Source: Heliocidaris erythrogramma (lineage: Eukaryota > Echinodermata > Echinoidea > Camarodonta > Echinometridae). From it: a stretch of DNA of 64,000 bases. Under the pieces are notes generated by a model that was given only the letters and a program-made list of their open reading frames with translations, was not told where the DNA came from and ran no database searches. This document shows, piece by piece, positions 23,092 through 59,264 of the stretch (position 1 is its first letter; each line of letters starts with the position of its first letter). The DNA lies in NCBI GenBank assembly GCA_025617745.1, contig CM046858.1, positions 44,465,750 to 44,529,749 of the forward strand, in the 5' to 3' direction. Both the position numbers and the translations under genes were made by a program.

Positions 23092-24929
23092 TTAATTTTC
23101 TAAACTGTCTTCAGAGTCGATTGACTTAGTATTTATTTCACTCAACTCCTTTTTGCTCTCGGGATATGACGGAAATAACATGTTTCGGATGCTGGGTCTC
23201 ACCCTCGTTTTAGGGTATATGATAAAACATGGTACATCAGACGATGTCCCTTTGGGTTGAGAATCTAAGACTACACCACTTTCTTTATCAGCCTTATTTG
23301 AAGATACATTAAGCATGAAAACGTGACGGCGAGTGAACTTCTTACTCAACTTCTTTTTGCGAAGCATCCCTGTTTCATGAACAAGATCAGTATCAGTATC
23401 GCTGTTAGCTTCACTAGGCGTCATCGTTGATGGACGGCTATGTTGATCCTTCACTCCGAGAGTGAGTAATTGGAAGTCGAGTTCATTCCCAGCTTCGCTA
23501 GATTCGTTGGACATGTTAGAAATGACCTTTGCTTTGACAACACAAGGGGACTTCCTTTCCGACGTTGGATGTCCAGAAAGGGAGACTGTGATTGAGTTCT
23601 CAGCTTCTTCAGATTCATTGGAAGTGGCCTTTCCTTCCGCAACACAAGAAGACTTTCCTTCAGATGTTGGATGTGCAGAAAGGGAGTCTGTGACTGAGTT
23701 CTTAGGTTCTTCAGATTCATTGGAAGTGGCCGTTGCTTCGGCAACACGAGAAGACATTACTTGAGGCGTTGGATGTGCATAAAGGGAGCCTGTGATTGAG
23801 TTCTCAGCTTCAGATTCATTGGAAGTGGCCTTAGATTCAGCAACACTGGCAGACTTCCCTTCGGAAGTTGGATGTGCAAAAAGGGAGTCTGTGATTGAGT
23901 CATAATCTTCGCCAGCATCATTTGTTGGAGACACGGCGGGCATTCTGGGAATACTACTGCAGTACCCCGCGGTTGCATGGTCTTGACGAAGAGAATCCAG
24001 GATGGAATCGGAATTCCTTCTCGTAGGCCTAGGCCTACCATTGGATACTCTTGTTTTGGGAATATAATGTGAATAGCATCTTCTAAGTTCTGTGTATGTC
24101 GAAACAGATCCACGCTTAAGATCACTCTCATCATCTGTTTCACTGATGGTTCCCTGTGTCTTATGAATATGGCGCGAATAATACACTTCCGGAAAGCCCG
24201 TGGAAACCGATTCTGGAACGAAATTCCTCTCTTCAACTTCTTCTGAAGTCGTCATTCTCGTTGAACGATTATTCTGTGATTCACTTCTGGTCCAAGGGGC
24301 TGCCGGAGAAAGGTCTCCGTTTGTGTCACCTTGGCTGGTAGCACCAGTTTCATCAGGGCTCTGCAAGCGTGGCCACATGTCGAAGTCGACGTACCCGTAG
24401 TCATCAGCTGAAACATCCCTGTTTGTGGAATAACACCAAGGATCTAATGTTGCATCGTTGTCAGTCGCAGAAGTGCAATGTGGTATTTTAACCTGGGTTA
24501 GGCCTAGTTCTACTGCCATTGTTTTGGAACCACTGGAATTCAATTTACCAATGGTGGCTTGTCTGCAATTCGGGCAACCCCTATTATCGGAGCTTCCAAG
24601 ACGGTCTTTCGTGTCCGTATTGCTAGCTGACCGCAGAATAGACGTCGCTACAGATGCGGGACGTCGTGGATGAAAGGCTCTTGGAGCATCCATATTTTCA
24701 TAATGGCTGTGTGGTCTAATTTTATGATCTCTGTTCTGTTTATATCTCGTTAGCGAAGCATCTTTGTTAATTTGTTGGCTGCCGTTGTCTTGTAATTTTG
24801 GAGGAGTGGGAATTAGATTTGCACCCCTCTTATGTATTTTGCGATAAGCTGCAAATCCAATGATGATGATGATGGTGAATAGACAAATACCGGTAGGCAC
24901 GCAAATGGGAATCAATGGAGACACGCCGT
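23092..24929 (-). CDS. Gene A, TM and cytoplasmic-tail exon
   Basis: Acceptor aacatgcag|AC, phase 1, 1838 nt open to the stop. It carries the TM helix, the tail motifs and the four-fold acidic Ser/Thr-rich repeat at about 23490-23915. Homologous to 44757-46156 of gene C. Confidence 0.85.
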
Positions 24930-27900
24930 CTGCATGTTAGAAAACAAAAGAAATTTCCTTTTTTTTGGTAAAAATGAATGAGGGGCTATTAAAAAAATAT
25001 ATATATATATATTTAGGTGTTGTGTGCATATCGTTGACAATTATTACATTATACTTCTTCTGTCAGAAATGTTTCAATTTGTGAGAGAATGAACAAGAAA
25101 ACCTTTCGTTATTGGAAAAGAGTATCAGATTTTTTGAAAATCAGGGGCGTCGCTATTGGGGGGGGGGGTATGAAAAATATTCTGTCACCAAATACGACAT
25201 TTTTGTAGGATGTCGGCAAATTTAAAAAGAGATGACATTTTCTTTCTTTTTCTTTTCTTCTTGTCATAGGTAGTGTTGTTCTTCTTTTCCTCATTCTTCT
25301 CCGTCTTCACTTACATAATATTTTTTTTTTTTTATTTATTTATTTATTTATTTTTTTTTTTTTTTGGGGGGGGGGGGAATAGGGAAATTTTCGAGTACCT
25401 TGTCGACAATATTGGCCAGACACCCTTAATTAAAAATGTTGTAGGGACGCCTCTTGGTAATACGGCCATTCACTTCTAACACTGTCTATAAAAGAGAGAT
25501 TCCTCCCTTTCAACTGAACGTCCCGATTTATATTCACATATTCTACGATGGTTTTATAAATTAGGCGCTCACATAATCGCACCTTTATTGTATCATTAAT
25601 CTACCTTTTATTCTACACGAAAATCAATTAACATGCTGCTAATTACATACAAGTTTCATAAGGTATTACATCAATACGATATAGTCCATATGCCTAAAAA
25701 GGGTCTTTACTTTCAGAGAACCTTGTGATGAAGGGAGGGTGAGGTTCTAGGTTTAAAAAGAGAATTTGTCATTGCCAGTGAAAACAAATTAATGGTATAG
25801 CCTGGGGAAGTGCACACTAATATGCCTATTTGCTTATATTATGGGAATTTAGAGAAATTAATAGGAGTGAACTATGGCTTCTGGTAGCAAGTCAAGTATA
25901 AATCAAAACTAACCGAGACCACAAGGCTGTCCAATACTACCCTTGTTTTTAGCTAGGCTACCATGGAGGGGCTACCGTGGAATGCTCACAACGTTCCCGA
26001 ATAATAACGTCCTACCAGGTATAGACACCATTTTCCGGGGGGGGGGGGGGGGATACTCGTTTTTCTGAAGGTTCATAATTCCGAAACACAAAATTCCCAT
26101 ACGAGGGGGTTCATTATTCCGGAAATGAAAAAGGGAATTTTGTTGCATCATTCCGAAGGTTCATAATTCCAAAGGTTCGTTATTCTAAAGGTTGGTTTAT
26201 CAGAAGGGTCATAATTCCGAAAAAAAAAAGGTTTCGTAATTCCGAAAATGAAATAGGGTTCGTATTTCCTAAAAAGGAAAACAGGTTCATAATCCCGAAA
26301 ATAAGATATTGCTAACTATTCCGAAGGTTCGTAATTTCGAAAAATGATGGAGGGTTCTTTAACATATTCGGAATTATGAACCCTGATTCATTTTCGGAAT
26401 TATGAACCTGACTTAATTTTCGGAATTACGAACCCTATTTAATTTTAGGAATTATGAACCATATTTCATTTTCGGAATTATGAACCTTTGGAAAACACGA
26501 CATTTAACCCATTTGCCACACCTGGGTATAGAGTGGTAAATGTAAAATGACTTTCCAAAGGACTTGCCAAACTTTGACAGGGATGCAATAGTCATCCACG
26601 GTACAATAATACCATACTGTACATGTACAAGGTCTGCAGAAAGTAGTCCTACGTTATCTCCAGATCCAGACTCTTGATTCATCAAGCTTGTCGACATTAA
26701 CAAGTACTAATTTTATGATTGATAGCTACTGAAATCGTTTCATTTGACATGTTTGATAGGATGTGAGTAAAAACAGACTGTGGAATTTGTTATTAAAAAC
26801 AAGTTTCATGAAATGAGACCCTTTATTCTGTAAAAGAAGGGGGCACAAAAATAAAATAAATTCACATTTTAAAAGATGCCTTTATTGAAGAGGGAGGCCA
26901 TTTAAAAAAATATGTATTGAAGGGTGGGCACGGGCCAGTCGAGCCCTCTAAAATCCGCCGCTTCTTTCAAACACCGTTAATTATATTTTGACAGTCCATT
27001 TTGATTATGAATTTTCACCTGTTTTGATAATACTGATGTACTAATGTACTTCCTCTGAACAGAAGTGGAGGTGTCGTGGTATAGTGGTTTCATTCACGGG
27101 ACTCTCAATCCAAGGGTTCAGGGTTTGAATATCAGCCCGGCACTAGAGTCTTTTGGCAAGACATTAATCCACATTTGCCACTCTCCACCCAGGTGTTAAA
27201 TGGGTACCTGACATGATTTATTCCTTGAAATGCGCTGATTACGGCTGCCGGAGCTAAAGCCAGGGTAATAATATCCAAACCCTTTGGAAGCGCATAAGGA
27301 CGTTATATCATAATGCGATATGCGCTATACAAGAACGGTTTATTATTGTTATTATTATTAGATTGAATGGGCATTATACCTTCTTTGTCTTCCTTCGAGG
27401 TAGGCCTGCAGACCATGGATAGATGGAATGTTGCTTTTGGAGAGTTTACTGTGAAGTAAAAAAAGGGGAAAAGAAGAAGATAAATAAATAAACAAGTGAA
27501 CAATAGGGTGAGGACGTAAATGCTTTAATAACTTTATTTCTAGGTAATATATGAAAAAACAAAATAAATGACACATTTATCATTAAAAATGGCAAGAGGA
27601 ATTAAGGTCACGTCTAAACAGAATTGATATAGGTGTATTCTAAAGACTTCAGAAGTAAAAGTATACATACTTAAAAAAAAATAATAATGAATAAGAGTAA
27701 TAATGAATTAAAGTAATAATAATAATAATAATAATAATCATAATAATACATGTATTATTATTAATAATAATAATAATAATAATGATTATAATGATAATAA
27801 TATCAATAATATAAATACAACAATAAAAATAACAATAACAATAAAGAAAAATATTTACACATTAAAAGCAACTTTATAGCACCATTTCTACTGGATACCA

Positions 27901-29709
27901 AGCGCTTGTAAAATATTATTCCACAAATTAGATATGACAGTTATAAATGAGAATTATTTATTGACCGTGCAATGTATACCTCTGTACAAAGAAACTGCAG
28001 TGTAACCACCACAAAATGACTCCGTATGATTCTGACAGGGCAATCCACAAACATTATCAACCAACTTCATTAGGCAATCTTGTTCACAAGAGCACGAACA
28101 TTTTGTCCGATTGTAAAGCCCTGCTACGGGAAATCCTTTATCTTTGCATCTTCTTCTGCAAGAGTTGGGCGTTGATATGAAGTCCGAAATGTTGATGTCG
28201 TAATCGAATTTCAAGCAGAGAAGGGGGTAGCAACCATAGTAATATCCATCTGTGAAAATCAAAGACACCTATACATTGTAATCTTAGAAGTATCGCTATC
28301 AGGTACCAGTGCCGGTCCAGGTTTGTTAGAGAGGGTTGGGACTAGATGTATTTCAATGAAATATGATTTCATGAATCCCGTTCATGAAGGGGGGGGGGGG
28401 GGGGGGGCGGGGGTGATTACGGTTGAGGAAAGAGAAAGAAAAGTCATATTGTTATATATTTTTCTTCTTATCCTCTTCATTTCCCCCTTTTCAACAATGA
28501 ACGTAAAAGTCTTTGCCATGAATTAGGGAATAATTGGAAATATCAAATTGGAAATATCAAATCGAGATAACGAGAACAAATTGCTCATTGTATGCCAAAC
28601 CATTGCTCTTGTTAAAGAGATAAAACAATACTATAAAAATGACGAAAAAAGAAGAAAAATTATACAATGTTTGTATTATTCAAACACCCTCTACAGTGCA
28701 TCTAAGAAAAATAGTTAACAGTCGGAAAAAGTCTCCCCAAATAAATATTTTAAAATATTTATAAGAAATGTTCATACCTTTGGATAGTTTAGGTCTCTTC
28801 TATGAAATGAGAGAAAACAAAAACAAATCTGGCCATATTTTAAGCTTGAGTGAGCAAATGCGACTTTTGCGAAAAGGTGCAAAATCCAAACTTGACAAAA
28901 ACTTTCTATTTGTTCTGGCTGGTATTAACCAATTTGAGAACTATTAAAAGTTGACAGTTGAAAAAAGTCTCCCCAAATGAACATTTTAAATATTATGTTC
29001 ATGAAATTTGCCTACCTTTGGATTGTCTTTCCTATCAAATGACACCAAAAAAGTTTGACGACATTTTACGCTTGAGTGAGCAAAAGCCATTGTTGTTAAA
29101 TGGTGCAAAAATCCATGGTTGACAAAGAGTTTGTATGGGTTCTGGCTGGTATCAGCAAAGTTAGGGTCTTGAAAAAGCTTAGAAATTTTAATATTCTGAC
29201 CATTAAAAGGCAGTTTGTGAAGGAATAGGCTTTGTTTTCTGTAGTCCTGACATATCCCTTCAAAACTTCATGGTTGACTGAGAAAGCCAGCTTGAATTAG
29301 AAACTTGTCAAAATTGATAATTGAAAGCTGTTAATAAAGTAGTCAATTGTTTACTGAAGCATAACAATGGTGATCAGATACGTCAGTAGTAGTACATACA
29401 GAGAACAAAACCTGGTCTTTCATAAATTGTCTTTTATTGGTCAAAATATGAAAATTTCTTAGCCTTTTCATGATCTCAATTTTGCTGATACCAGCCAGAA
29501 CAACTACCAATTCTTGTCCAGTCTAGATTTTGCACATTTTGGCAAAAGTGGCCTTAGCTAAATCGAGCGTTATATCTTTCTGTAGGGTACATCCAATTGC
29601 TTTCGATTTTCTTACCTGTTGCATATCCCAGAGATCCATCCTCAACCGATTTCATAATCACTGAAGAGAACAAGTCCATGACCAAGAAGACAATTGCAGA
29701 ACGGTACAT
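23092..29709 (-). CDS. Gene A: WSC-domain single-pass receptor-like protein, 733 aa (intact copy)
   Basis: Model: 29709-29616, 28249-27980, 24929-23092, all introns phase 1, frame closed by the stop at 23092. Residues 1-~20 are a signal peptide (MYRSAIVFLVMDLFSSVIM). Residues ~32-121 form one WSC domain with Cys pattern GCYP, CRRRC, KCSCSC, CGLPC and CGGYTAVSLYR, plus N-glycosylation sequons NIS, NRT and NHT. Residues ~127-149 are a TM helix (GICLFTIIIIIGFAAY) with basic residues after it. The ~580-residue tail has GCPNCRQ, GKLNSSGSKTMAVELGL, ATLDPWCYSTNR, DDYGYVDFD, VYYSRHIHK, four ~34-residue repeats (HPTSEGKS...ATSNESEEAE) and a conserved C-terminal block. No stalk exon was found. WSC domains are known or predicted carbohydrate binders in fungal sensors and animal surface proteins. 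A signalling role is inferred from the topology and tail only. No transcript support. Confidence 0.8.
23490..23915 (-). repeat. Four in-frame ~102-bp coding repeats
   Basis: Each unit reads N-S-[IV]-T-x-SL-x-[AG]-HPT, then a Ser/Lys segment, then [AV]TSNESEE or a variant. Unit starts follow GEDYDSIT, AENSITG, PKNSVTD and AENSITV. Gene C has one such unit (DSTTDPF...HPTSAKKSSS). The same four units occur in copy 1 (4830-5240). Confidence 0.85.
26037..26507. mobile_element. Inverted-repeat element with TTCGGAATTATGAACC array (copy 2)
   Basis: Copy 2 counterpart of 7365-7837, in the intron between the WSC and TM exons of gene A. Same fold-back arrangement and ends. Confidence 0.7.
27063..27357 (+). 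mobile_element. tRNA-derived SINE (copy 2)
   Basis: Counterpart of 8399-8692 with the same box A-like head, body and (ATT)n tail, in the same intron of gene A. Confidence 0.8.
27980..28249 (-). CDS. Gene A, WSC-domain exon
   Basis: A 270-nt phase 1-1 exon (ttttcacag|AT ... AGAG|gtatac). It encodes DGYYYGCYPLLCLKF, NSCRRRCKDKGF, LYNRTKCSCSC, CGLPC and SFCGGYTAVSLYR, matching the WSC consensus of paired Cys, 'YG.EC.C' and 'C..PC.G....CGG...SVY'. Confidence 0.88.
29616..29709 (-). CDS. Gene A, signal-peptide exon
   Basis: ATG at 29709 chosen because it is the only Met giving a hydrophobic leader that splices in phase 1 (G|gtaag at 29616/29615) to the WSC exon. It encodes 31 residues, with a spacer (KSVEDGSLGYAT) after the hydrophobic core. 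A stretch of about 120 bp upstream is conserved with gene C. Confidence 0.8.
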
Positions 29710-29850
29710 GTTTATCACTTAACTATTTACAAATGATTTAATACAAAAGCAGAACATACAGTAATACTAACAAATAAGGTAATGTTACAAAGTTCGCCTA
29801 CATATGAACACGTAACAGTGTTACTCTCCACATGCCAAGAGAAAAATGCG
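29710..29850 (-). promoter_or_regulatory. Conserved 5' flank of gene A (candidate promoter/5' UTR)
   Basis: Immediately upstream of the ATG, 'gtaaatagttaagtg', 'gttctgcttttgtatt' and 'gagtaacactgttacgtg' (minus strand) are shared nearly verbatim with the flank of gene C at 51430-51545. The introns of the two genes have diverged more. No clear TATA box was identified. Confidence 0.4.
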
Positions 29851-30670
29851 GCTATGACACAGGTGATTGCTGATTATACCTCTAAAGAAACTTTTAATAT
29901 ACCATTAATCATGGCTATTCTGTTTCTATGAAAGACTCATTTAAAAATTCCAGATAGTTACCTTTCAGTAAGGGTCTTTAGTGAATATAAATGAATCCTA
30001 ACTGTACTTTCGTTTTATAAATTTGTCATGAATCATAAAGGAAAGAAACCGAAATTTTGTTTTTATACAGAGCTCTATGAATGACAAAAGTTTTATATCA
30101 ATGTTTAGTATTTTATAGTCCATAATACATAATATATGGATATGTTCTAGTTAACATGTAATATGTACGGTACTTAAGATAATTTACAACACAACTAGCC
30201 TCAACGCTTCATATTGAGAACTTTTTCATGGTTAAAAGATACATGTCACATAATTTATACTTTTTCATACTCGTTAGATTCGACATACTTTTCATAAATA
30301 AATCATATTCAAGAGAAATAATACATAAATGAATATAGTTTAAAAATATTGAAATGTTGCTATCAAACGCATCATTCAGGCTTTTTTGCATTTCGTCCAC
30401 CCCCATGACATGACAAGCACTGGTCCAATGTATTGCTCAACACTGATTTTTCATCAAAGAAAAATTAATGGAAGGAACCCAAAGATATAAGCCCTACTCG
30501 TAGAAGTCTTTTAGGCATGCATACTAATTTATTTCTAGTCTAAATTTCCTGGAATATGTATCTGTATTGCATCTACTACTTCTATAATAATTATCGGACC
30601 TGTCAAGTTAGTAATAACGATAATGATTATAATAATGATAACAAAAATATCATTATTAATAATAATAATG

Positions 30671-30707
<37 letters not shown>

Positions 30708-31442
30708 GCCATCATCTATACATGATGAATCCCGGGAAGAATCGAGAACATCAGAAAAGGAGAAAACTTGTGTGGCTAGTTCCCCAGAAAGAGCCCTGGT
30801 CATAGGTGTGGTTGATGCCCCAGGAGGAATGTGCTTCTGGAACTAGATCTGTCTCTAAATCAGCTTTACTGAAAGACATTGTTGATCAGCCATGAATAAT
30901 AAACCCTTGGATTATGATTATTACTATGTTGCAGTCCTCTTCCATTTCTCTCGAATCCAAGTTCCCTATCCTCGTCTCTCCCACTCTTTGTCTGTCCCTT
31001 TCTTCTTTTCCTGTATTAATTATTTTATATTTGTGTATTCAGGCGTAACCGCTACAAGCATCTGCTTATTGGGATCGCGCCTTACTCCTTGTAATATTGC
31101 AAGTTCTTGATTGTACTGATACTACTGTATATGCATGTAAATTATACTATTTGAATAAATATTGAATGTCAAAATCAATGGAAAAGATAATCTGAATTTG
31201 AAAAAAAATAATAATTTGAATTTGAGAAGCGTGAAAAGGTTCTTTAGAAATTAGGCCTGTGAGCTGGATGTCCCTTCCGCGAACGTGAATAAAAGTAACG
31301 GCCCCAAGATGTTGGGCTCCTGGTTTGATGTGCACTCGACGTTCGTTTAAACCCCCCCCCCCCCCCAAATCTATCTGTCTGTAGAATAAGCCCACGGATC
31401 AAGAGTCCCTGAATTACAACTCTTTCCTCTGATAATAGATGT

Positions 31443-32372
31443 CAGGCTCGTATCCAGGGGTTCTAAAAGGGTGGGTCGTTTTTGGCAAAAGTGGACCTTT
31501 TTGTCATAATCAATACGGACCTTGCTAGGGGGTCGGGGGCATGCTCCCCCCGGAAAATTTTAAAATCTAGATGATTTCTGCTGCAATTTAAGGACTCCCG
31601 AGGGGAAATTTAGGGGTTGTGAATGATGATTTTGAACACACATTTTTGAAGTCGCAGAAACAAAATATTTATTAGAGTGTGTGTTACATTCACTTGTAAC
31701 AGCTAGACCACAGTGACAGCATTTTGAGCAGCCACAATGACATACTCGTGACCCATGCCATGGTTTTCACATTTTTCTTTTACAGAACGACGCCAGAGCT
31801 CTGACCACTGTCTGTCTGTCCGAATGCATCTAGTGTTGGTCTAACGGTGTCAGGAAGCCTGGACTTTTGGACGGATTAGATACAACTCCAGTGTTGCCAA
31901 CTCTACGTATTTATACGTAGAATACGTATTTTGAGGGTCAACTACGTTCTACGTACTCATTAATCAATAATGGGTTACTTCTACGTATTTCCAAGAGGTG
32001 TTACTGTGTTGGCAATTTTTCTTCAAAAATGGCCTTATTGAAACGCACCAAATAGCATCAAAATTTCAAAATTTTCCTGGGGGAGGACCCCCAGAACCCC
32101 GTGACGACAGGGGATCACCTCTCGTGCTCTCCCCGCGCTGCCGCTCCGCCGCTCCGGAGCTATGGCCACCTCTTTTTAAAATCTACTTATTACTTTTTGT
32201 TGTTGGCAACACTGCAACTCACTACACCAGCTTTGATGCTGTACAACTGACGGCGTGTGGGTAATTCTGGTAACAAAGATTAAAGGTGTGTGTGTTTTTT
32301 TTTTCATGAAAAAGCGGGCCTCAGCCCCTCCGACCCTCCGACCCCTCCGACCCCCCTCTGGCTACGGGCCTG
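31443..32372. mobile_element. 930-bp hAT-like element in the gene B tail exon (copy 2)
   Basis: Same element as 12789-13718 with the GATGT duplication. It holds the nested CAGTGTTGCCAAC element at 31889-32214, itself flanked by CAACTC. Its presence in both copies shows the insertions predate the 18-kb duplication or allele split. Confidence 0.75.
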
Positions 32373-32453
32373 GATGTAATCCGCTACTATTTCTTAACCT
32401 GTCAGGGCCCCAATCAAGAATCGGAAGCCCACCTAGGTATCCTTGTCTGAAAC

Positions 32454-32785
32454 TCACATAGACGAGATCGGGTGCATCTGCTTTGGCGGATTGCCCGATT
32501 GCCTGTCCAATGACATATAATGACGTAACGGTATATCGGTTCGATCTTCAGATTGATTACCGGTGCTTCTTGTTTCTAAGTTAATATCAACATTAGCGTC
32601 GATATTCTGGTGCCTGCGTTGAGGTGCTGTCGTTGCAGTAACGAGAATTTGTGTCCTTGTACATTTTCTGCCTAGTTGGTATGTTGTCATGGCAAAGGCT
32701 ACGATGAAAAGGCAAATACCGACTAGCACGTAAAGCGGAATTGCCAGAATTATACCACCTGTACCATGTGTACCTTGTGTAGGCC
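32454..32785 (-). CDS. Gene B, TM and short-tail exon
   Basis: Acceptor aaaatag|GG, phase 1, 332 nt to the stop at 32454. TM helix IILAIPLYVLVGICLFIVAF, then QLGRKCTRTQ and ~80 further residues ending HPISSM. Compared with gene D the frame is lost by a 1-nt deletion about ten codons before the end, and the rest of the ancestral tail (TLDPWAYSTDR...) lies beyond inserted DNA. Confidence 0.8.
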
Positions 32786-35700
32786 CTATTTTACACAATA
32801 GAGACAGTGAAACTGTGATAATAACATCAATTTTTTATTGTCAATGGACAAATGTATTTATAAATGTTCCTCCGCTTAATCTAAAATATGAATTCAAATT
32901 AGATTCAAAACTTTGAAATCATTTTTGCATGTATTATTACTTTCGAATATTTACCCTAAAGGCACCTGAAAATGTGATAAAGGTACTTTTATTATTATCA
33001 TTATTATTATTATTTTTATTATTTTTTATTAGTATCATCATGGCCATCAATATTATTTTGCTTTTCAGATTTTTTTTTAGGACAGGTGCCCACTCCATTT
33101 TACAAACACCTGGATCCGCATGTTTCGGAAAGGCTCCATATTTGGTCTTATAATGGAGACCTCATGCTTCATTACGAGAGGACCATCCATCATGGACTTT
33201 TTTACATTTTAGTTCCTTATAGCAAAAAGGAATTTGAAATGAATATTTCTGAAAACATTTTTCCACTTGTATTAAAAGATTCATGTACCAGGCCACCATT
33301 TGTTCACCCCCCCCCCCCCGGTTTTGTTGAAAGGGTGCGTTGGGAGCGTCGGGTCGCGTCGCATTGAATGGAACGTCACCATTCGTCCAAAGCCCACCCC
33401 CATCGGTTTTGCCGAAAGGTTGCGTTGACTTTTTCTAAATATTGTTGTTATTATTATTATTATTATCAGGCAGGTGTCAGGGGCGGATCCAGGATTTTGT
33501 AAAATAGGGGGCACAGAGCCGGAAAACTATTGTGTACTTAAGGTATGCCAGTTGGGTTTCAAAGGAGGGGGGGGGGGGCGGACGGCAGATTCGCCCCCCT
33601 CCCTGGATCCGCCCCTGATTGATTATTATCATTAATCAGGGGCGGATCCAGGATTTTGTAAGGGGGGGGGGGGCACAGAAATGCAGGGCTGTCAACTTTG
33701 GAGGGAGATCCGTATTTAAATTGCTCGGGGGGGGGGGGGGGGTTGGCGAGATTTTTTTCTTCGCGAGCCCTCCAAAAGTCGCTCAGTGGACGGGGGGGGG
33801 GGGGTGTGGGTTATCAGATTTTATGGGGTCCATTTTTCCTCCCATAATTCTCTGCAACAAAAAACAAACAAACAAACAAACAATAAAAGGTTATCAGTTC
33901 TAAAGGGGGGGGGGGGGCACAATAAAAAAGGGGCACATTGCATATTTTTCTTTCAAAGGGGGTGGGGGGGGGCACGGGCCGGGATCCGTATATAAGTCCA
34001 CCGCTGTCATTATTATTACATTTTTAAAAAAGTCCAAACGCACCCTTTCGGCAAAACCAGGGAGGGGGGGGGGGGGCTTTGGACGAATGGTGGCGTTCCA
34101 GTCAACGCGACGCGCGCTACCCACCCTTTCGGAACAAGCCTGTCTGACAAAGCAACAACTTGTGTATGCTTAACAAAAAAACTGCCTCACTTATGAAACA
34201 GATTAACCAAATATCTTGACACAATTATGTTATATGACAGGGTAAAAATCCCTTCATTTGAATGTACATGACTACAAAAATTGTATATTATAATGAAATC
34301 CAGTGTCATGAATTCCACAGGTGATCATGAGTGTCATCGTAGCTAGTATACAGGTCAGTGGGAATCTCACAAATAGCACTGCTCTAACATTACTTTGTAA
34401 TTAAATGACACCACCCATGGGATAATGTATAGCTCCAAGGAAACTGCAACTTTTTGAGACATTGTTGTCCTTCTTAATAAATAATCTAATTGGATTAATT
34501 TAAAGATATTTTCAACAGGCTGACAATTATCTACATGATTATTGGCTTATCGGATTATTATTCATTCCACTTTAATCACACATACGACCACCCACATACA
34601 CCTACGCACACGCACATCCACACACACTTGGATCAACTTGTTACAAATAGAAACAGAAATATTTACCCTTTGTATCATGGTCCACATTTAGAGACTGGTC
34701 TTCCTGAGGTGTCTTGCAACTTTTAGATTTTCTCGTGGACGTTTTTTGTGCCTTCACTGTAATACCAAAACCATGAAAAAAGAAACATCATGAATTGAAC
34801 AAATTGTACTATAGCATAACAAATATTGTGAGAAAGAAAGGGAAATAGTTGGATGATATATGTTCGTATAATTCACGTTTTTCTTTTTGCAAGATAGATA
34901 TTCTAATTTATGAAACTGATACGAAATGGAGGCAAGGAGGGACCGTTTTGTGATTTCAGGGAAGACAGAAATAGAAGGAGGGATAAAACCGTTAAGTTGT
35001 AGTGCATTACATTATTGTCAAAGAACCAAATATTGGAAACAGCTTGTGGAGGCCTAAATTTATTTACACGGCCATTAAACTATCGGCTTCAGTGATTCTA
35101 TTGCATTAAAAGCAATTGACATTTTTTTATATGAGTTGGCTCGTTTTCTTTTCTTTAGACTGTCAGGGGCTTTGCAAGAGTTTAAGTGGCGCATCACCCG
35201 GAGTCTCTGTCCACCTTTCTGGCATGTTTCAAAACTTCCCTTTTACAAGCTATGCTTCTATGCTGGTCTCTGTTTTCATTCTCATTTTCATAAAATTAAT
35301 CTAACGTAGTCTTCATTACTGTTAATTTTTTTTTTTACAACTCAAACTTTAATGTACTTTATTTTGCTTGTAATGATCGAAAACGTTTCTGCACCAAGTT
35401 GTGTTGTGAATTATTTGTATATTGTTAATTGCACAATACATATTGTTATATACATGTACTTTGAAAAATGAAAATGTAATGAAATAAAATCTAAATCTGA
35501 AATCTGAAAAATCTGAAGCTTATATAATTTTTTTTCTACATGTCTTTATGTTCTACACGTTTTACCTGTGTATACAGAAACTGCAGTATAACCACCGCAA
35601 GATAACGCTATGTCACCATGACATGGCAATCCACAGTAGGTGTCGGAATAGCGGTGTAAACATGTCAGCTCACATGCACAAGAGCATTTCGTCCGGTTGT

Positions 35701-43170: not shown

Positions 43171-43199
43171 CTTCTTTCCATGTTCTGCTCATCTCTCTC

Positions 43200-44150: not shown

Positions 44151-44163
44151 AGAGTGTAATTAA

Positions 44164-44705: not shown

Positions 44706-44756
44706 TTAATAGTCTACGGCCTTGCAACAATATTATTAATTTGATAGTTTAATGCA

Positions 44757-46156
44757 TTACTTTTCTAAACTATCTTCAGAGTGTATTGACTTAGAATTGA
44801 TTTCACTCAACTCCTTTTTGCTCTCGGGATATGACGGAAATAACATGTTTCGGATACTTGGTCTCACCCTCGTTTTAGGGTATATAATGAAACACGGCAC
44901 ATCAGACGACACCTCTTTTGGTTGTGATTCCCCGCTTTGTTTTTCAACCCTATTTGAAGATGTGTTGACCATAGAAACATGACGACGACTGAAAAACTTA
45001 GTCCACGGTTCTCTACAAAGTAGCCCAGTATCAGGAAGAAGATCGATATTCCTATCTTTGCGAGCTTCATCTAGCCTCTTTATTCCTTCAGGATTATTCC
45101 GTGACCGATCGTGCACTTCGAACATTAGGGTTAGCAACTCGGAGTCGAGTTCGTTTCCAGATTCGTTGGAAGTGACATTTGCTTCGCTAACAGAAGAAGA
45201 CTTCTTTGCGGACGTTGGATGTGAAAAGGGATCTGTGGTTGAATCAAAATCTTTACTAGCTTCAATCGGAGATCCTTGCGCTCCAGGAGTACTACTGGGG
45301 TAGCAGCTGGATGTCGCAAGGCCTGTAGAAAGAGAACCCGGGACGCAACCAATAGTTCCTCCACTGGGCTTACCGGTGGACCCTCTTGCCTCGGGAATAC
45401 GTAAATTGCATTCTCCAAGTGATGTATATCTCGAAACAGACTCGTGTGGAAAATCTCTCTCTTTACAAGAATCACCAAGGGTTGCCTGTGCCCTATGAAT
45501 TTTGCACGAATAGTACACTTTGGGAGAGCCAGTGGGAACCGAATCTGGAACAGGATACCCCTCTACACCATCTTCTGAAGACGTCATGGTTGTGAGAGCA
45601 CTTTGTGACCGGGACTCATCTCTAGTCAAAGGTTTTGCCGTTGAAAGGTCTCCGGTGGTGTCACCTTGGCTGGGAGCACCAGCTTCATCACAGCTCTTCC
45701 AGCGTGGCCTTATGTCGAGGTCGACGTACCCGTAATCATCAGCTGAAACATCGGTGACGCTAATTCTGTTTGTGGAATAACACCAAGGATCTAATGTTGC
45801 ATAATTGTCAGTCGCGGAAGAAGTGCAATGTCGTATTTGACTATGTCGTAGGCCTAGTTCTACTGCCAATGTTTTGGAACCACTGGATTTCAATTTGCCG
45901 TGGACAGCATCAAGCATAAATTGTCTGCAATGCGGGCAACCCCCGTCGGAGTTTTCAAAACGGTCTTTCGTATCCGTGCCGAGCGCTGAGTGGTTCATTT
46001 GTTGACTGCCGTTGCCTTCTTCTTTTGGAGGAGTGGAAATTAGATTCACTCTTCTCTTACATATTAGGCGATAAACTGCCATTCCAGTTATCATGATTAT
46101 AACGGTGAATAGACAAATACTGGGCACGAGAATTGGAGCCATAGGAGTCACACCAT
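44757..46156 (-). CDS. Gene C, TM and cytoplasmic-tail exon
   Basis: Acceptor aaatgcag|AT, phase 1, 1400 nt to the stop. TM helix SICLFTVIIMITGMAVY, basic KRR, then GCPHCRQ, GKLKSSGSKTLAVELGL, ATLDPWCYSTNR, DDYGYVDLD, VYYSCKIHR, one HPTSAKKSSS unit and the C-terminal block with FIIYPKTRVRPSIRNMLF. Paralog of the gene A tail exon. Confidence 0.87.
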
Positions 46157-49100
46157 CTGCATTTGAGAAAACACAAGAAAATGTAAAATTATCTGCTAAA
46201 AATGAATGAGGATTATAAAAATACGTTTCGAATGTCAATGTGTCGTCAGTGTTTTTTTTTTTTTTTTTTGTTGTTGTTAACTATCACATTCTACTCTTTG
46301 GAAGTATTTTCAATGGATAACAGGATGACTAGAAGATCCTTGATTTTTTGGAAAAGAATTGTGCCGTTGTCATAACCAGGGGCGTTGCTTGGGGGGGGGG
46401 GGGGGGGTTAATGTTATATTTTCTCTCGGCAAATCTGACAAATTGATGACTTTTCCTTTTTTTTCTTTTTCTTCTTGTTCTTATTCTATGCATTGTTCTT
46501 CAATTCTTGTTTTCTGTATTGTTCAATTCTCGTTCTTGTTTTTGTTCTTATTCTTGTTTTTGTTGCTCTTCTTTTCTTGTTCTTTTTGTTGTTGTTCTTC
46601 TTCTTCTAGTAGGGAAATTTCGGCGACCTTGTCGGCAACTTGGTCCGACACCCCCAATTAAAATGTGTATAACCTCAATTACTTTTATCACTGTCTATTA
46701 AATGGAGAGTCATCCCTTTAAGCGGATCCTCAAGATTAATATTCTCATATCGTCAGAACTATTTATAATTCAGGCAACCAGTAATTGACCCTTCAATGAT
46801 TAAATGATGCTTATCATAAATCTACCTATATCAAAAACGAAAACCCATTAACATGATGCTAACAACATACAAGTTTCATAAGGAATATATCAATATAAGG
46901 AATATATTAATATGACAAATTTCCCTATTACCACGAAGAGAAAAAAGTTACTTTCAGAGAAGAAAGATTGTTGTGCAGAAGAGAAGGGGGATGGGGTATG
47001 CTGTATGTCCACACAGAAGTTATCATTATCAATGAAAGCAATGTGATTAAGATCATGAGCATTGTAAAGCTTGATCATACTAACATCTCACTTAAAGTGG
47101 ACAGTTACATATTTTTTAAATCGGTTACACATGACCGTCGTTTAATAATACTATCGCCTTACAATTGATGTAGATTTGAAAAGAATACGTCGAATGGACA
47201 AAGAATTTAGAATGAGAATTTAGAATTTATTTCAACCATATGGTTGGATTCACACATAATAAAAACATTCAAATTGACATTTAGATTACAAAGAATACGA
47301 CATACATTTAAATAATTCATGAAATACAATACTTATATAGAATAAAATACATGTACAAGACAAATGGGCATGATATGGCAAGGTATAGTAAAACATGGAA
47401 ACGATAGATTAATCAAATTTTAAATTACTTCTGCAAAATAAAGTTTTGATTTGATTTGAAAATTAATACGATTTAAATGAAATTGAACTTGACGGGAAAT
47501 ATGTCGAAAACAGCAGAAGTCAGTCTCGGTGATGTGGCGATCGGCCACACGGAAGGACAAGACAACGGGGAAAAAGCCATGCACCAGGCCAAGACTACAA
47601 TGGGTTTCCCTAGCCTGATGCACATGTGCCCCTACTTGTCCTCCAATGTGGCGTTAGAATGACGTTAGAATGACGTACCGTCTCCGTTTTTCTTAGAAGT
47701 CGGCCTACAAATACCTGATACATTGAATGCTGATTTTTATTAAAAGTTACTGCATGATCAAAAATGATATTTACCCTTTGTATCATCGTCCACATTTAGA
47801 GACTGGTCTTCCTGAGGTGTCTCGTAACTGTCAGATTTATCCGAGAACGTTTCTTGAGCGTTCTCTGCAACATACAAAATCATTAATTTGGAAAGAAACA
47901 GCATGAATTGAACAAATTGTATTAAAGCATACAAAATTTTGGAAGCAGCTTGTGGAGACTCTCTAAATTTATTTGCACGACATTTAAACTGTTCTGAATG
48001 AGGGTTATAAAAGTATATTTCCAATGTCAATGTGTCGAGTGCGTTTTGTTGTTAACTACCGCATTGTACACTTCTGAAGTGTTTCAATGGGTAACAGGAT
48101 GAACTAGAAAATCCATCATTATAGGAAGAGAATTCTCGCAACCCCAAATACGCAATTTCGCCAACAGATGGCGTTTGTCATGCAAACCACGCATGCGCAT
48201 TGCTGACAATATCCCGATTGGGTCGACAATGTGTTTGTCTTTTTGCATTGAAAATGTACTCAGGTATTACAAAAATCCTCGAGTTTGAGTATAAATTAAC
48301 CGACATGTTTGAAAAGATACCGTCATGATTTATTGAGACAATTGGTTGCATTTTCAAAATTTGGTTTATGTCATGCGATCCAAAAATTAAGCATTTTAGC
48401 ACTCATTTTATTCATAAGCCGTAGTATTTCAATATGCCATTTCGGAGATGCAATCTGAGCATGAGCAGATAAAGGTCATCTGTACAAAATTGTCCCAGAG
48501 GTAATTACCCTGGGGGCAATTGTCCCAGGGGTAATTACCCTGGGGGCAATTGTCCGAGGGGTCAGTTATTGTATAGGCTAATAAGCCACTTCGGGGATGC
48601 AATCTGAGCATGAGCAGATAAAGGTCATCTGTACCAAAATTCTAAAACCCACTGACACTAATATTCGATATGTGCTCATGAATGTCATGTAATCATTATT
48701 CAATTATGCAGGTGGAAGTATTCTTTTTAAAGGGGGAAACAAAAGCTATTCATGAGGCACCTCTATCACTCCCAGAGTTATTTTTCTGAAGTGCACATAA
48801 AGGGACCCTCCATGTCTAAAATATCTGTGGATATTTGGGGTCATTTGTACCATGCGCTAACCCCGAACTGGCTTATACGGACCGGAAGTGAATTTAACGA
48901 AGATTCGGACCATTTCCATGCATAATATTGCCCTCTACGTCGAAAATTGCATATTTGCGGTAGCGAGAATTGACCCTTCATTGATTAAATGATGATTATC
49001 ATAAATCTACCTTTATCAGACACGACAATCCATTAACACGATGCTAACTACATACAAGTTTCATATGGTACATATCAATATTGCGAAGTTCTATATGACC

Positions 49101-51429
49101 ACAAAGAGAAGCTACTTTAAGAGAAGAAAGATTGCGGTGCAGAAGAGAAGGGGGATGGGGGTATGCTGTATGTCCACACAAAAGTTATCATTATCAATGA
49201 AAACAATGTGATTAAGATCATGAAGATTGTTAATGCTTGATCATGCTAACCTCTCACTTAACATACATGTAGACAAATATATTTTAGAAATCGTTCACAC
49301 CTGACCGTGGGTTAATAATGCTATCGCCTCACAAGAGAAGTAAAATTGAAAAGAATACGTCGACATGGGCATAGACATGTACCTTCTCCGTTTTTCTTAG
49401 AAGTCGGCCTGCAAATACTGGCTAGATTGAATGCTGCTTTTGAAGAACCCACTGCATGATAAAAAGGAAGGGAATGAACAGGATGGTGAGAGCAAAATTA
49501 CTGTGATAATGCAATTTCTATACATCTCCTGATCATTAAACACCATCATCTAAGGGAGAAGAATAGATTTACAGAAATTGGGGAAAATAGAGAGAGAAAG
49601 AGAGAGCAGCAATAATCTATGGATATTGTAGGAAATTGGCGGTAAAGAACCACTAAGGTTTTCTTATTCAATTATTAAAATTGTATTGGTTAAAAATATG
49701 ACAATGTTGATATCGAAAAGGATCTTCACCACAATTTCGTCAAAATAGTTTCTTACAACAGATTTAATCACTGAAATGTTACGCTTTTGTACAAAATGAC
49801 AAGAGGAATAAATTACACTTCTGAACAAAATTGATATTGCATTATTCTCAGCTCTGAAGAGTTCGTAAGTAAAATTATCCTATACATTCTAACAAAAAAA
49901 CCGTTATTTCCAAAATTGGATGTATTCAACAACAAGAAGTATTTATTGAACATGCAAGGTTGTACCTCTGTACAAAGAAACTGCAGTGTAACCACCACAA
50001 AACGACTCCGTGTGATCCTGACAGGGCAATCCACAAAAGATATCATCCAACTTCATTAGGCAATCTTGTTCACAAGAGCACGAGCATTCTGTTCCGTTGT
50101 AAAGCCCTGCTAAGGAAAACCCCTCATCTTTGCATCTTGTTCTGCAAGAGTTGGGCGTTGGTATGAAGTCCGAAATGTTGATGTCGTAATCGAATTTCAA
50201 GCAGAGAAGGGGGTAGCAACCATAGTAATATCCATCTGTGAATATCAAAAGAAAACAAAGAAAAATATGATCATTAAGGATAATGCACCAGCAATGGGCA
50301 TGATATATGCATTAGACTGTTAGAAATGTTTTTTCTCAAGATCTAAAATGCAAAAGTTTCTACAGCTCAGTCACTTTGCTTCATCGCATAATTATGTTTG
50401 CTCCAGGATGTCTTAATTTTGCGAACACGGGTTCAAAATATGAAAAATAAAGTGAAATAAAGTGTAAGTTTCATCGTTTGTTCAATGTCGTGTCCCCAAT
50501 ATAGGATAAAATGTATTAAAAAATTGTGAGGGTTCAACATTTGAAAGAAATCTCAACTTCCGGTTACCTCGCTAAATTCCTCGACTCTATTTCTCAAGGG
50601 TTTTGTTAATTATGCGCTCCATTTGTGAAGGAAGTGGATAGAAAACCGTTGACCAAAGTTCAAAATGCGAATCTCTACCCCTCGATTGCAGTGCTCAATT
50701 GTCCTGGGTAAAATGCACAAGAACTCGCGTTTTGGGGTTAAAAATGTAAAAAATCTCGGTTGCCTTGCTCCCTCACTTGTACAATAACGTAGGCAAGTTT
50801 GAGCGGGGGGGGGGGGGGGGGGGGGGGTGCAACTTCGTTGATTGTCCCGGGCGCCAGAATCCCTAGATGAGCTATTGGGTCCAGGTTGTCTGAAGGAATG
50901 AGAAAGAAAACTCATATTCCCCCTTCTTTTCCTCCCCCCCTTTTTCAACAATCAATGTAAAATGTCTTTGACATGGGCTTCATTGAATTAGAAAATTTTG
51001 GAAATGAAAAAAATTAGTTAATAATTACAATTTGTTCATTGTATGCCGAACCATTGCTCTTAACAATGCTATGAAAATGACACACTTTTAAAAAGAAAAA
51101 TTGCGATAATGTTGACATTGTTTAAACGTTAGACAGCCTCTATTCTTGAATCTGCAAGTATTTATACCATTTCTTGCTGTATGTTAGAGCAAATACAAAC
51201 AAGATTCACCAAGATTTACCTTTGTAACCTTTTAAAATGACGCCCCATGTGCGAATGACATAATATATGGTTTGATGAGAATGAATTAGTTATATCTTTC
51301 TATAGGGTAAATCCAATTGCTTTCGATTTTCTTACCTAGTGCATATCCAACGGACGCAGCGTCCATCGCTTTCATAACCACTGAAGAGAACAAGTCCATG
51401 ACCAAGAAGATTATTGCAGAACGGTACAT
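44757..51429 (-). CDS. Gene C: WSC-domain single-pass receptor-like protein, 617 aa
   Basis: Model: 51429-51336 (signal peptide), 50235-49966 (WSC), 47864-47775 (stalk), 46156-44757 (TM/tail). Phase 1 introns with canonical GT-AG ends, total 1854 nt = 618 codons. Leader AIIFLVMDLFSSVVM. WSC domain at ~32-121 with GCYPLLCLKF, NSCRTRC, ECSCSC, CGLPC and FCGGYTAVSLYR. The stalk at ~122-151 contains SYETPQEDQSLNV. TM at ~157-179. Tail ~440 residues with several Tyr motifs. Differs from gene A in having the stalk exon and one rather than four acidic repeats. It has no frame defects and is outside the 18-kb duplication, so it is the most reliable model in the window. Ligand, enzyme partner and pathway are not visible. 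Confidence 0.83.
47775..47864 (-). CDS. Gene C, stalk exon
   Basis: 90 nt, phase 1-1 (gttgcag|AG ... AAGG|gtaaat). Encodes ENAQETFSDKSDSYETPQ then EDQSLNVDDDTK. The downstream intron begins like the intron next to gene B stalk2 ('gaaacagcatgaattgaaca'), implying it came from a B-type gene. Confidence 0.78.
48442..48636. repeat. Direct ~46-bp repeats flanking a GC-rich minisatellite
   Basis: 'ggatgcaatctgagcatgag' plus 'cagataaaggtcatctgtac' occurs at 48448-48488 and 48595-48635. Between them are about 2.3 units of 'ggtaattaccctgggggcaa' plus 'ttgtcccagg', itself partly palindromic. In an intron of gene C. Function unknown. Confidence 0.7.
49966..50235 (-). CDS. Gene C, WSC-domain exon
   Basis: 270 nt, phase 1-1 (atattcacag|AT ... 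AGAG|gtacaa). DGYYYGCYPLLCLKF, CRTRCKDEGF, NGTECSCSC, FCGLPC, FCGGYTAVSLYR. About 88% identical to the gene A domain. Confidence 0.88.
50795..50828. repeat. Poly-G tract
   Basis: A run of more than 20 G at 50804-50827 in intron 1 of gene C. It corresponds in position to the poly-G at 9730-9750 in gene A, so the site predates the A/C duplication. Otherwise 50260-51330 holds no gene. Confidence 0.8.
51336..51429 (-). CDS. Gene C, signal-peptide exon
   Basis: ATG at 51429, 94 nt, donor CTAG|gtaag. MYRSAIIFLVMDLFSSVVM and then KAMDAASVGYAL. Homologous to the gene A leader. Confidence 0.82.
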
Positions 51430-53293: not shown

Positions 53294-53301
53294 TAGTATA
53301 T

Positions 53302-55489
53302 CTTTATTTATTTATTTATTTCTGATATTTATACAGGGTGGCTCATATCACCAATCTGGTGGTCTTCCATGAGGCCCTGTTTGGTAACAATAAAACAAAT
53401 AACATCAACAATAATCAAAATATATAAATACACAAGCATAAACACGTATAATACACATTAATCGGTATCCTCATTAGTGAAGTAATCATTCAGTAATATT
53501 CATTGACTATTTACAAGAATTTTCGAATCGAATTTTAAATTAAGGATTATTAGCATTGTAAACTGTGAAATAATCAAATTAAAATATGGATGATAACCAC
53601 ACATCAAAATGAGGGGGAAATAATTAACAACACATATACCAAAGAAGTTGCTATGCATAATATCCCCATATAGTTCACAGCTTACATCTCCTCTGCAGAT
53701 AACAGAGCTTTTAGAGTGTATTTGAAACTGTTTAAAGTAGGCAACATTTTGATAGAAGTTTCAAGTTGGTTCCATACTGCAATTCTAGATTATTATTGTA
53801 TGTGTCCGTCCTAAATTTAGGTACACGCAATGTATCTCTTACAGCATGTCTTGTGCTGTGATCATGTAGAGAGCTGACATGTTGTAAATCTTTTTTTAAG
53901 TATTCTGGTGCCACGCCATGCATTGCTTTATACATCATCACTGCACGTCCAAACTGGAAACGGGTCTGAATAGGCATCCAACCTAACCGACTAAACATAT
54001 CTTTTGAGGATACATCGAATCCTTCTCCCAACACTATACGGGCAGCCCGTTTCTGAACCTTTTGTAGTTTAATAGTTTGTCTTTGAAATCTTTCGGACCA
54101 AACAGAGGAACAATAATCAAAATGAGGAAGGACGATGGAATTATATAGAAGTTTCAGAGACCTAGTTGGAACATAACTTTTTGCTCGCTTAATTACACTA
54201 ATATTTTTTTGAGCAGTCTTAATAACTTGTTCCACATGTTCCGTCCATCGCAACTCCTCATCAATCATGACACCTAGACACTTGGCAACTTTAACTCTTT
54301 TCAGACAACTGCCGTTTAGTGTGACAGAAAAATCCTTTACACTATTAAGAATTGATCGTGGTCCAATAAGCATCACATTTGTCTTATCAGCATTAAGAAC
54401 TAGACGGTTTTTGTTACCCACGAAAAAACATTTTCTAAACCTTTTGTTAGCTTTCGCTCTACTTCTGCAACACTTCTTCCGTTAACTGTTAGAGTGGTGT
54501 CGTCGGCATACATATCAACAATACTTTCATCAATACATTTTGGTAAGCTATTAATGTAGATAGAAAAAAGAAGTGGCCCAAGAATTGAACCTTGTGGGAC
54601 ACCCATCACAATTTTTGAGGAACTTGAAGTGGTCCCTTTAAAACAAACCGTCTGTTCTCGGTTAGACAGATATGATACAAACCGCTGAACACTCCTATCA
54701 GAATAGCCAATGGCTTTCAGTTTATGTAACAGAATATCGTGATCAACAGTGTCAAATGCTTTCCTCAAATCAATGAAAGCAACACCTGTTAATTCATTGT
54801 TATCAAAATTCAATGACAGTTGGTTAACTAATTTCATAAGAGCTGTTGCAGTAGAGTGAAGGGGACGAAAACCTGATTGGTTAGCACACAATATTTCATA
54901 TTTGTCGAGAAAATCACATAGTTGGAAATGCACAGCTTTTTCAAGAATCTTGCTTACTACGGATAATATCGATATTGGTCTGTAATTACTGGGAGTGGAC
55001 ATACCACCAGCCTTGTAAATTGGAATAACTCTCGCTTTTTTCAAGATTTTAGGCACTTGTCCTGTTGCAATTGACTTATTGATAAGGCACGTTAAAGAGT
55101 CAACAATGACATATTTCGCCATTTTCAAAAGACGGCAACTTATTCCATCATCACCTGTTGCTTTATCGTCACTCATGTTTTCAATTTCTTTTAAAACAAA
55201 TGCGTTCATGACTTGATGTAGCTCAAACTTTTCTTCAGTATTAGCTAGCTCATTTTCTTCTAGAATGATTTCAGCGTGTTTTGGGATATCACGCGTAATA
55301 TTTTGAGCACAAGTAACAAAATATTCATTAAATGTTTGAGCAATACCTTTGTCATCAGTAATTTTGGTCCCATTCACGTCTAGGCTGCTGGGTAAGACAT
55401 GATTGGATTTAGGAATAATGTGCTTGATACTCTGCCACATTTTTTTGCTATTCCCTTTACTCACATCTATCTGAGAACTGTGATATCCA
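53302..55489 (-). mobile_element. 5'-truncated LINE (Jockey/CR1-like) with target-site duplication
   Basis: Bounded by TAGTATAT at 53294-53301 and 55490-55497. Minus-strand order: truncated start, reverse transcriptase 55464-53732, 3' UTR, and a tail of AAATA repeats (53303-53325 on the plus strand as tttattta). The endonuclease domain is missing, consistent with 5' truncation at insertion. A frameshift at ~54410 breaks the RT. It lies between genes C and D and is absent from the A-B interval. Confidence 0.85.
53732..55464 (-). pseudogene. LINE reverse transcriptase, frameshifted
   Basis: RT blocks in order: ARVIPIYKAGG...NYRPISIL (block 1), QSGFRPLHSTATALM (2), VAFIDLRKAFDTVDHDIL (A, catalytic Asp), GVPQGSILGPLLFSIYINSL (B), MYADDTTL (C, catalytic YADD). 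Then, after a frame change near 54410 beside a run of A/T, VLNADKTNVMLIGP (D), AKCLGVMIDEELRW (E) and the C-terminal PHFDYCSSVW region. All catalytic residues are present, but one frameshift and the missing N-terminal endonuclease make it inactive. The first codon at 55464 is GTG, the edge of an open frame rather than a true start. Confidence 0.88.
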
Positions 55490-55498
55490 TAGTATATT

Positions 55499-55829: not shown

Positions 55830-55837
55830 AGTATATC

Positions 55838-56440: not shown

Positions 56441-56445
56441 ATGTA

Positions 56446-56483
56446 AACCCTAAACCCTAACCCTAAACCCTAAACCCTAACCC
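56446..56483 (+). repeat. Interstitial telomere-like tract
   Basis: Five tandem units mixing CCCTAAA and CCCTAA, ending in CCC. The animal telomere repeat is CCCTAA; the 7-base units are a variant. Isolated, with no neighbouring subtelomeric features. Confidence 0.85.
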
Positions 56484-56489
56484 AAACCA

Positions 56490-58560: not shown

Positions 58561-58632
58561 TAGCCATCATCTATATACAAGATGAATCCTGGGAAGAATC
58601 GAGAACATCAGAAAAAGAGAAAAATTTTGTGG

Positions 58633-59264
58633 CTATAGTTCTTCAGAAAGAATCCTGGTTACAGCTGTGGTTGATGCACACGAGGTGTGTGCTTCTAGGA
58701 TTAGATCTGTCTTTAAATCAGCTTTACTGAAAGACATTAACTTGTTGATTTGCCGCGAATAATAAACTCTGTGAGAAGCATCAGGAGATTCTCTGGAAAG
58801 TGGGCCTTGGAGCTTGACGTCGATTCCGCCAACGTGAATGAAAGTATCTGCCTCAATATGTTGGGCTTCGGGTTTGATGTTCTCTCGACGTTCACTTGAC
58901 AAAATGTTCTCTCGGTCAGTAGAATAAGCCCATGGATCAAGAGTCCCACAAACAAGCTCCGGTACCTCTGCTTTGTCGGTATTTCCCCGTTCACTTAAGG
59001 ATAGGCTGTCCAATGACGAATAATAATGTGAAAGGCTATCGGTTCGATCTTCAGAATGATTACTTCTTGTTTCTAATTTAAAAACAACGATAGCTTTCCT
59101 ATTCTGGTGCCTGCGTTGTCGTACTGCTGTGGCAGTAACAAGACTTTGTGTCCTTGTATTTATTCTTCCTAATTGGTAGGTTGTCATGCCAAATGCTACG
59201 ATGAAAAGGCAAATACCGACTGGCACGAAAAGTGGAATTGCTAGAAGTATACCACCTGCATCTT
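58633..59264 (-). CDS. Gene D (partial): TM and tail exon of a B-type protein
   Basis: Phase-1 acceptor gcctacag|AA at 59264 (alternative aaatag|GG at 59273, same frame), open to the stop at 58633. TM helix LLAIPLFVPVGICLFIVAF, then QLGRINTRTQ and a ~175-residue tail with GTLDPWAYSTDR and VYYSRQINK. This is the uninterrupted version of the gene B tail. Upstream, the region equivalent to the gene B WSC2 and stalk2 exons is missing: homology jumps from ~14.63 kb-like sequence at 59790 to ~17.5 kb-like sequence at 59890, and the satellite follows. No WSC or signal exon occurs between here and 64000. Either a decayed gene or one whose ectodomain exons lie beyond the window. Confidence 0.65.

Follow-up and report, generated by a model that had tools for sequence, protein, structure and literature searches.

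Clustered genes for candidate single-pass WSC receptors with tyrosine-bearing tails in the sea urchin Heliocidaris erythrogramma

Gene models and contig redundancy at the locus

A 64,000-nucleotide stretch of DNA from the sea urchin Heliocidaris erythrogramma (assembly GCA_025617745.1, contig CM046858.1), called the window throughout, was analysed for its protein-coding genes. It corresponds to C6:44465750-44529749 of the genome (G000; 1.064 Gb, 26 contigs), and coordinates below refer to the window unless they carry a contig prefix. On its minus strand lie genes for putative membrane proteins with one or two WSC domains, which we designate A, A', B and C. Signal peptide, ectodomain, single hydrophobic helix and tail were read from exon models and simple hydropathy. 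Gene A has four exons, namely a signal-peptide-like exon (51336-51429), for which gene A' has a similar counterpart, a WSC exon identified by Pfam (49966-50235), an exon for a 30-residue stalk (47775-47864) and a last exon for the predicted transmembrane helix and the tail (44757-46156), the latter also supported by tail comparison. Gene A' was modelled with three exons on the same strand: a signal-peptide-like exon (29616-29709), a WSC exon that entered our alignment A1 (27980-28249) and an exon for helix and tail with internal 102-bp repeats (23092-24929). A stalk exon was searched for in gene A' and none was found.

Gene B carries two WSC exons, the first at 40928-41200 (alignment A1) and the second at 35566-35835 (Pfam), each followed by a stalk exon (40349-40438 and 34667-34756), and ends in an exon for the helix and a short tail (32454-32785). 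These five exons amount to 1055 nt; together with a predicted 91-nt signal-peptide-like exon (42451-42541), which has similar counterparts in genes C and D, they give 1146 nt, or 382 codons. The similarity of the gene B tail exon to gene C is lost at 32497 and comes back at 31409 and 30907, about 1 kb on and with a stop. The two downstream stretches that resemble the gene C tail lie at 31223-31409, which holds the in-frame stop, and at 30777-30907. Gene B was therefore probably truncated in its tail exon. Only the last exon of gene C, for helix and tail (58633-59273), lies in the window; its signal-peptide, WSC and stalk exons correspond to C6:44536569-44549142, past window position 64000. When exons were joined by script, the second stalk of the window-contig copy of gene C had no in-frame acceptor, and the copy on a further contig, c3, gave exons of 91, 273, 90, 273 and 90 nt that led into the tail, the stop of which was not reached by the script. 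For gene D (C6:44556-44560 kb) the same procedure recovered exons of 91, 273 and 72 nt but no in-frame tail acceptor.

An initial annotation, made from the sequence alone, had joined separate open frames into three genes with phase-1 exon borders. These sequence features were confirmed: the gene A junctions 51336/50235, 49966/47864 and 47775/46156 have GT donors and AG acceptors, all internal exon borders of A, A' and B are in phase 1, and the models close exactly at 618 (A), 734 (A') and 382 (B) codons. Closure of the three models thus stands, but the 382-codon gene is probably not intact. Similar exon sets are present again outside the window, and the WSC exons of A and A' show a ratio of nonsynonymous to synonymous substitution rates (dN/dS) of 0.33; by this comparison the exon models are more than a product of chance.

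Part of the window is present twice. Self-comparison aligned 3418-21563 with 22064-40217 at 98.8% identity across 18.2 kb, and the former stretch contains a copy of gene A' (4434-11054) and part of a copy of gene B (13799-17181). Over 18087 aligned bases, a global alignment of the two copies showed 93 mismatches, along with 57 indels; 37 of the indels involved a single base, 28 of them in homopolymers. One copy stops exactly before a 500-N assembly gap (21564-22063) and the other begins exactly after it. We therefore consider that the two stretches are almost certainly one locus represented twice, by overlapping or haplotype contigs. Contig c3 begins directly after a second 500-N gap (C6:44596048-44596547) and is collinear with the window locus, the listed pieces (longer than 600 bp and above 90%) being about 92-99% identical. 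We tentatively read c3 as another haplotype rather than a real duplication, although the far end expected of such an overlap was missing from the 5 kb tested.

Given the duplicate locus and the collinear c3, we rejected the idea that the WSC copies of the window all represent separate genes. The 15 matches to WSC exons on C6 stand for 7 distinct WSC exons, which belong to 5 genes, with three matches to the second WSC exon of gene B (B2) and two each to those of A', A and D, to B1 and to C1 and C2 of gene C. Of the tandem cluster claimed in the initial annotation, the distinct genes were retained, whereas part of the duplication is an assembly artefact. The abutment of the 18.1-kb copies on one gap, the start of c3 at another and the shrinkage of the C6 matches could suggest that the family as a whole consists mainly of unmerged haplotypes. 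This explanation is extremely improbable: the genes are strongly divergent (the WSC domains of A and B share about 51% identity), many more are found on other contigs, and the 5 kb tested did not contain the far end that a c2/c3 overlap should have.

The WSC ectodomain and the extent of the family

Against the Pfam WSC model (PF01822, curated cut-off 27.8 bits), gene A scored 31.0 bits, the second WSC domain of gene B 33.8 bits, a copy from C10 38.7 bits and the two-domain model of gene C 50.4 bits. Only two PDB sequences matched the WSC ectodomain at E<=1, 9n3u_A (E 0.0055) and 7pz2_A (E 0.006), the second of which is the yeast Wsc1 domain (PMC9024836). In alignment A1, which comprises 18 WSC sequences, the eight canonical cysteines (positions 6, 30, 34, 50, 52, 67, 71 and 79) are invariant in 18/18, and in the CGG motif G80 is invariant and G81 nearly so. 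With both tested ectodomains of the window above the cut-off and the eight cysteines kept, the WSC assignment of the initial annotation was borne out.

The cysteines of A1 were matched by their order to the Wsc1 pairs C27-C86, C49-C69, C53-C71 and C90-C98 (PMC9024836), so that the corresponding bonds are predicted from order. Three additional cysteines were observed, C11, which is invariant, and C54 and C58, both present in 17 of the 18 sequences. The exception, a WSC copy from C15 (L026:2079-2348), has lost the two together, which suggests that C54 and C58 form an extra disulfide in this family. As the totals are 11 cysteines in 17/18 sequences and 9 in L026, C11 is left without an evident partner. 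Entropy was counted over 15 rows of A1, the two c3 copies and the partial C9 copy having been left out. A sequon at N46 occurred in all 15 rows, and the most variable of the tabulated segments comprised residues 72-78 in the long loop, with a mean entropy of 2.04 bits.

In solved relatives the WSC domain has a PAN/Apple-type fold. WSC domains bind glycans or proteins (PMC9024836), and since protein binding is documented for Kremen1 in the same source, the glycan sensing put forward in the initial annotation was not established. Neither was its 'undescribed system', whereas the WSC ectodomain, the one hydrophobic helix, the tail and the modular phase-1 exons on which it was built were all upheld. 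The protein ligand of the Kremen1 WSC domain is Dkk1 (PMC9024836), and a scavenger-receptor/WSC/Sushi protein is listed in a sea star skeletal proteome (PMC5460417); both would suit a developmental or tissue-signalling set, Kremen-like or associated with the skeletal matrix, that was expanded by tandem duplication. Such a role is quite improbable, as the models scanned with Pfam are free of kringle, CUB, Sushi and SRCR domains. Large, polymorphic and partly truncated families are, moreover, unusual for developmental receptors.

The initial annotation had described a clustered family, and this family is far larger than the window. With one WSC exon as query, the genome gave 98 places in gross count (C10 60, C9 16, C6 15, C15 5, C16 1, C19 1). 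The Pfam WSC model gave 268 candidates, of which 150 were scored, each of them above the cut-off (150/150); most of these were on C10, and the C6 WSC exons of the window were not among them. A number of the higher-scoring matches could derive from SRCR/WSC proteins, because 36 WSC domains (8.96%) were reported among sea urchin SRCR genes (PMC10855680). When one C10 tail was used as query, 19 matches were obtained, all on C10, and 16 of these 19 had one of the 60 C10 WSC places upstream of them on the same strand, at a distance below 12 kb. When positions were drawn at random from 24.28-25.40 Mb 2000 times, the mean was 4.2 and no draw exceeded 10, compared with the 16 observed, although the 19 matches include two pairs of neighbouring pieces and, given redundant contigs, the places are not fully independent.

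Elsewhere on C10, a row of same-strand WSC matches spaced by about 10-35 kb was seen at about 39.0-39.3 Mb, and these outscore those of the window against the Pfam WSC model. Matches with equal or near-equal scores and opposite orientation lie at 51.3-51.6 Mb (minus strand) and 53.2-53.5 Mb (plus strand), perhaps a duplicated haplotype stretch or an inverted duplication. SRCR exons gave 1546 first-look candidates across the whole genome, with 150/150 of those scored above the cut-off. Many SRCR candidates are what an echinoid genome would be expected to contain. Tektin exons pointed to a sea urchin as well: one on C10 matched PDB chain 8snb_8J at 244 bits (119/121 residues; 132.9 bits for the next chain), and two exons of another tektin, on C9, matched 8snb_8Q at 219.7 and 138.3 bits (104/113 and 70/76 residues; 130.2 and 64.4 bits for the next), 8snb being a structure from Strongylocentrotus purpuratus. 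A tektin exon on C5, by contrast, was closest to mammalian tektin-3 (138 bits, compared with 104.5 bits for the best 8snb chain); this is compatible with the absence of that paralogue from 8snb but lends no support.

Cytoplasmic tails, constraint and variation

The tails had been called unfamiliar in the initial annotation, which proposed a profile search of them; in that search no Pfam family reached its cut-off. No family was returned for the tails of A, A' and C at E<=10 or for two conserved tail blocks, the C-terminal block included, and two C10 tails gave at E<=1 sub-cut-off matches only, for example Myc_target_1 at 18.1 bits for a cut-off of 31.1 bits. Among PDB sequences one C10 tail had no match, and the C-terminal block of gene A had four, with E 0.13 or worse. 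Membership of the tails in a known receptor family was rejected on these Pfam and PDB searches, which gave no match above cut-off.

The tails share tyrosine-bearing motifs. VYYSxx[IL] occurs 9 times across five tails, those of A, A', C and two C10 genes, with a maximum of 1 in 2000 shuffles. When the A tail is compared with that of A', no residue is retained as well as tyrosine (10/12 conserved, compared with 271/451 overall). A motif of the immunoreceptor tyrosine-based inhibitory (ITIM) type, [SIVL]xYxx[LVI], is present as SRYTSL in A and STYTEL in A', in a segment without constraint, and in none of the tails of C, B, D and two C10 genes. YxN is found in the tails of A', D and both C10 genes, and TLDPWCYSTNR/DDYGYV is a further recurring segment with tyrosines. 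As a genome query, the gene A tail matched C6 only, in 9 pieces, and the C-terminal block gave three matches at E<=10, gene A and the two copies of A', and nowhere else. The 102-bp repeat inside the A' tail exon is in frame and present in 3.8 copies (23519-23900, and 4849-5230 in the second copy), whereas the gene A tail holds about one unit; tail length therefore seems to vary by internal duplication.

Constraint is unevenly distributed along the tail. In the last 46 codons compared between A and A', 9 synonymous and 2 nonsynonymous changes gave a dN/dS of 0.04; the segment TLDPWCYSTNR..DDYGYV gave 0.38 and the whole tail exon 0.56. From this pairwise comparison, the C-terminal block of the two C6 tails is an undescribed, strongly constrained element. 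The value of 0.56 for the whole tail, the disrupted tail of gene B, a one-base frameshift in the c1 copy of A' and a stop at codon 205 in the c3 copy of A raise the question of whether a large share of the C6 cluster is in decay or evolving neutrally, made up of truncated and frameshifted leftovers of duplication. We find this very improbable, since the comparison of A with A' gave a dN/dS of 0.33 for the WSC exon and of 0.04 for the C-terminal block. Frameshifts may also be sequence errors, because 28 of the 37 single-base indels fall in homopolymers. The frameshifted A' copy, the stopped A copy and the disrupted B tail may be either real alleles or errors.

An 800-bp block compared between the contig copies of gene A showed 7 mismatches, every one of them within the 270-bp WSC exon (5 nonsynonymous, 2 synonymous). 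Such a pattern could arise in gamete or other self-recognition, where sperm or egg would bear single-pass receptors from a clustered and diverging family, and the sea urchin sperm receptors SpREJ6, 7 and 10 do carry a WSC domain (PMC1934368). A role of this kind is nonetheless improbable: the SpREJ proteins are large multidomain members of the PKD1 family, and the family size is equally compatible with immune families. In comparison with the c3 copies, the other tabulated WSC exons gave 3 nonsynonymous and 4 synonymous changes for B1 and none for B2, so the concentration of changes in the WSC exon of gene A is not general. The A' tail copies differ by six substitutions, all nonsynonymous, which are too few for a conclusion.

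Apart from the receptor genes, the window holds two overlapping open frames of a retroelement on the minus strand (53732-55497). The upstream frame matches the RVT_1 reverse transcriptase at 112.9 bits; the downstream one, in another frame, had no Pfam match above cut-off. At 60112-62766 lies a long tandem array whose unit measures about 133 bp, related periods being present too, and many short repeats that share a TTCGGAAATACGAACC-like unit and show periods of 16, 26 and 42 bp were found at 20355-20901, 39011-39552, 7474-7814, 36735-37022 and other places. Scans for tRNA genes and Rfam families gave no useful lead.

Functional reading and comparison with known systems

On the observed gene structures, WSC identity, tail motifs, partial constraint and family size we base a reading that we hold with moderate confidence, in which the genes belong to a large clustered family of single-pass type I WSC receptors with phosphotyrosine-type tails and plausibly serve in innate immunity. 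Membrane topology, ligand, dimer formation, phosphorylation and immune role can plausibly be pictured as follows. A signal peptide would place one or two WSC modules outside the cell, mostly on short stalks, and one membrane helix would lead into a probably disordered tail with the recurring tyrosine motifs. The modules may bind a glycan or protein ligand, and binding would cluster the receptors; the invariant C11, which is unpartnered in the canonical pairing, could link a dimer covalently. A kinase of the Src-family type would then phosphorylate the tail tyrosines, and SH2 proteins would be recruited to the phosphorylated tails. Innate immune recognition by coelomocytes or gut epithelium appears the most likely use.

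Several observations weigh against this reading of an immune phosphotyrosine receptor family. The VYYS motif was first noticed in the same tails in which it was later counted, and since the C6 tails are related to one another, as are the C10 tails, the 9 occurrences are not independent. VYYS is absent from the tails of B and D, and SxYxxL, found in A and A' only, from those of C, B, D and the two C10 genes. No constraint was seen between A and A' in the 14-codon VYYS segment (dN/dS 0.97) or in the SxYxxL segment (1.22). The tails of the WSC genes on C9 and C15 were looked for and not found. Redundant contigs inflate the counts of 98 and 268, neither of which takes gene structure into account, and two frameshifted gene copies together with the probably truncated gene B could indicate decay.

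A more far-reaching version, which we regard as unlikely when taken as a whole, would make the echinoid WSC modules the recognition element of a large polymorphic repertoire like that of the vertebrate paired immunoglobulin and lectin receptors. Signalling would fall to the long-tailed members, with their tyrosines of the VYYS and ITIM types, members with a truncated tail, gene B among them, would serve as decoys or partners, and conversion or selection would diversify the ectodomain alleles. As part of the same proposal, the C-terminal block of 46 residues in A and A' would form a new docking module in the cytoplasm.

Among animals with vastly expanded families of innate receptors, sea urchins are the textbook case (Toll-like, NLR, SRCR and SpTransformer). 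If the immune reading is true, a WSC-only receptor family would add a candidate repertoire for glycan or microbe recognition, and a handle on its signalling. No description of a WSC-only receptor family with such tails was found in the full-text collection searched, which covers few of the subscription journals. WSC-domain genes are among the candidates at a Daphnia resistance locus (PMC9894429).

Of the known systems, the yeast cell-wall integrity sensors Wsc1-3 share with the urchin gene models the order of WSC domain, linker, one transmembrane helix and tail as well as the eight cysteines (PMC9024836). They have, however, a long glycosylated Ser/Thr-rich region in place of the 30-residue stalk (absent from A'), and they are fungal and form no clustered family, whereas the urchin tails are long and carry tyrosine motifs. 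Kremen1/2, like the putative urchin receptors, are single-pass receptors and have one WSC domain, but in Kremen this domain is flanked by kringle and CUB domains, and neither gene A nor the gene C model had a kringle or CUB match in Pfam. SpREJ6, 7 and 10, also membrane proteins of sea urchins, contain a WSC domain (PMC1934368) and differ from the present models in their multidomain PKD1-type build. Members of the sea urchin SRCR superfamily with WSC domains also belong to an expanded receptor family (PMC10855680); by contrast, no SRCR domain was present in the models scanned with Pfam, and none of the best 150 of the 1546 SRCR candidate places lies on C6. Finally, the amphioxus protein BbLcLRR combines an ectodomain WSC domain with a single membrane pass and ITIM-type tail tyrosines (PMC8211107), although its ectodomain consists mainly of leucine-rich repeats. 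In Jurkat cells, Lck phosphorylates the tail tyrosines of BbLcLRR, and the protein associates with SHIP1 (PMC8211107). With its WSC domain in the ectodomain, BbLcLRR is the closest functional precedent for the phosphotyrosine reading of the urchin tails.

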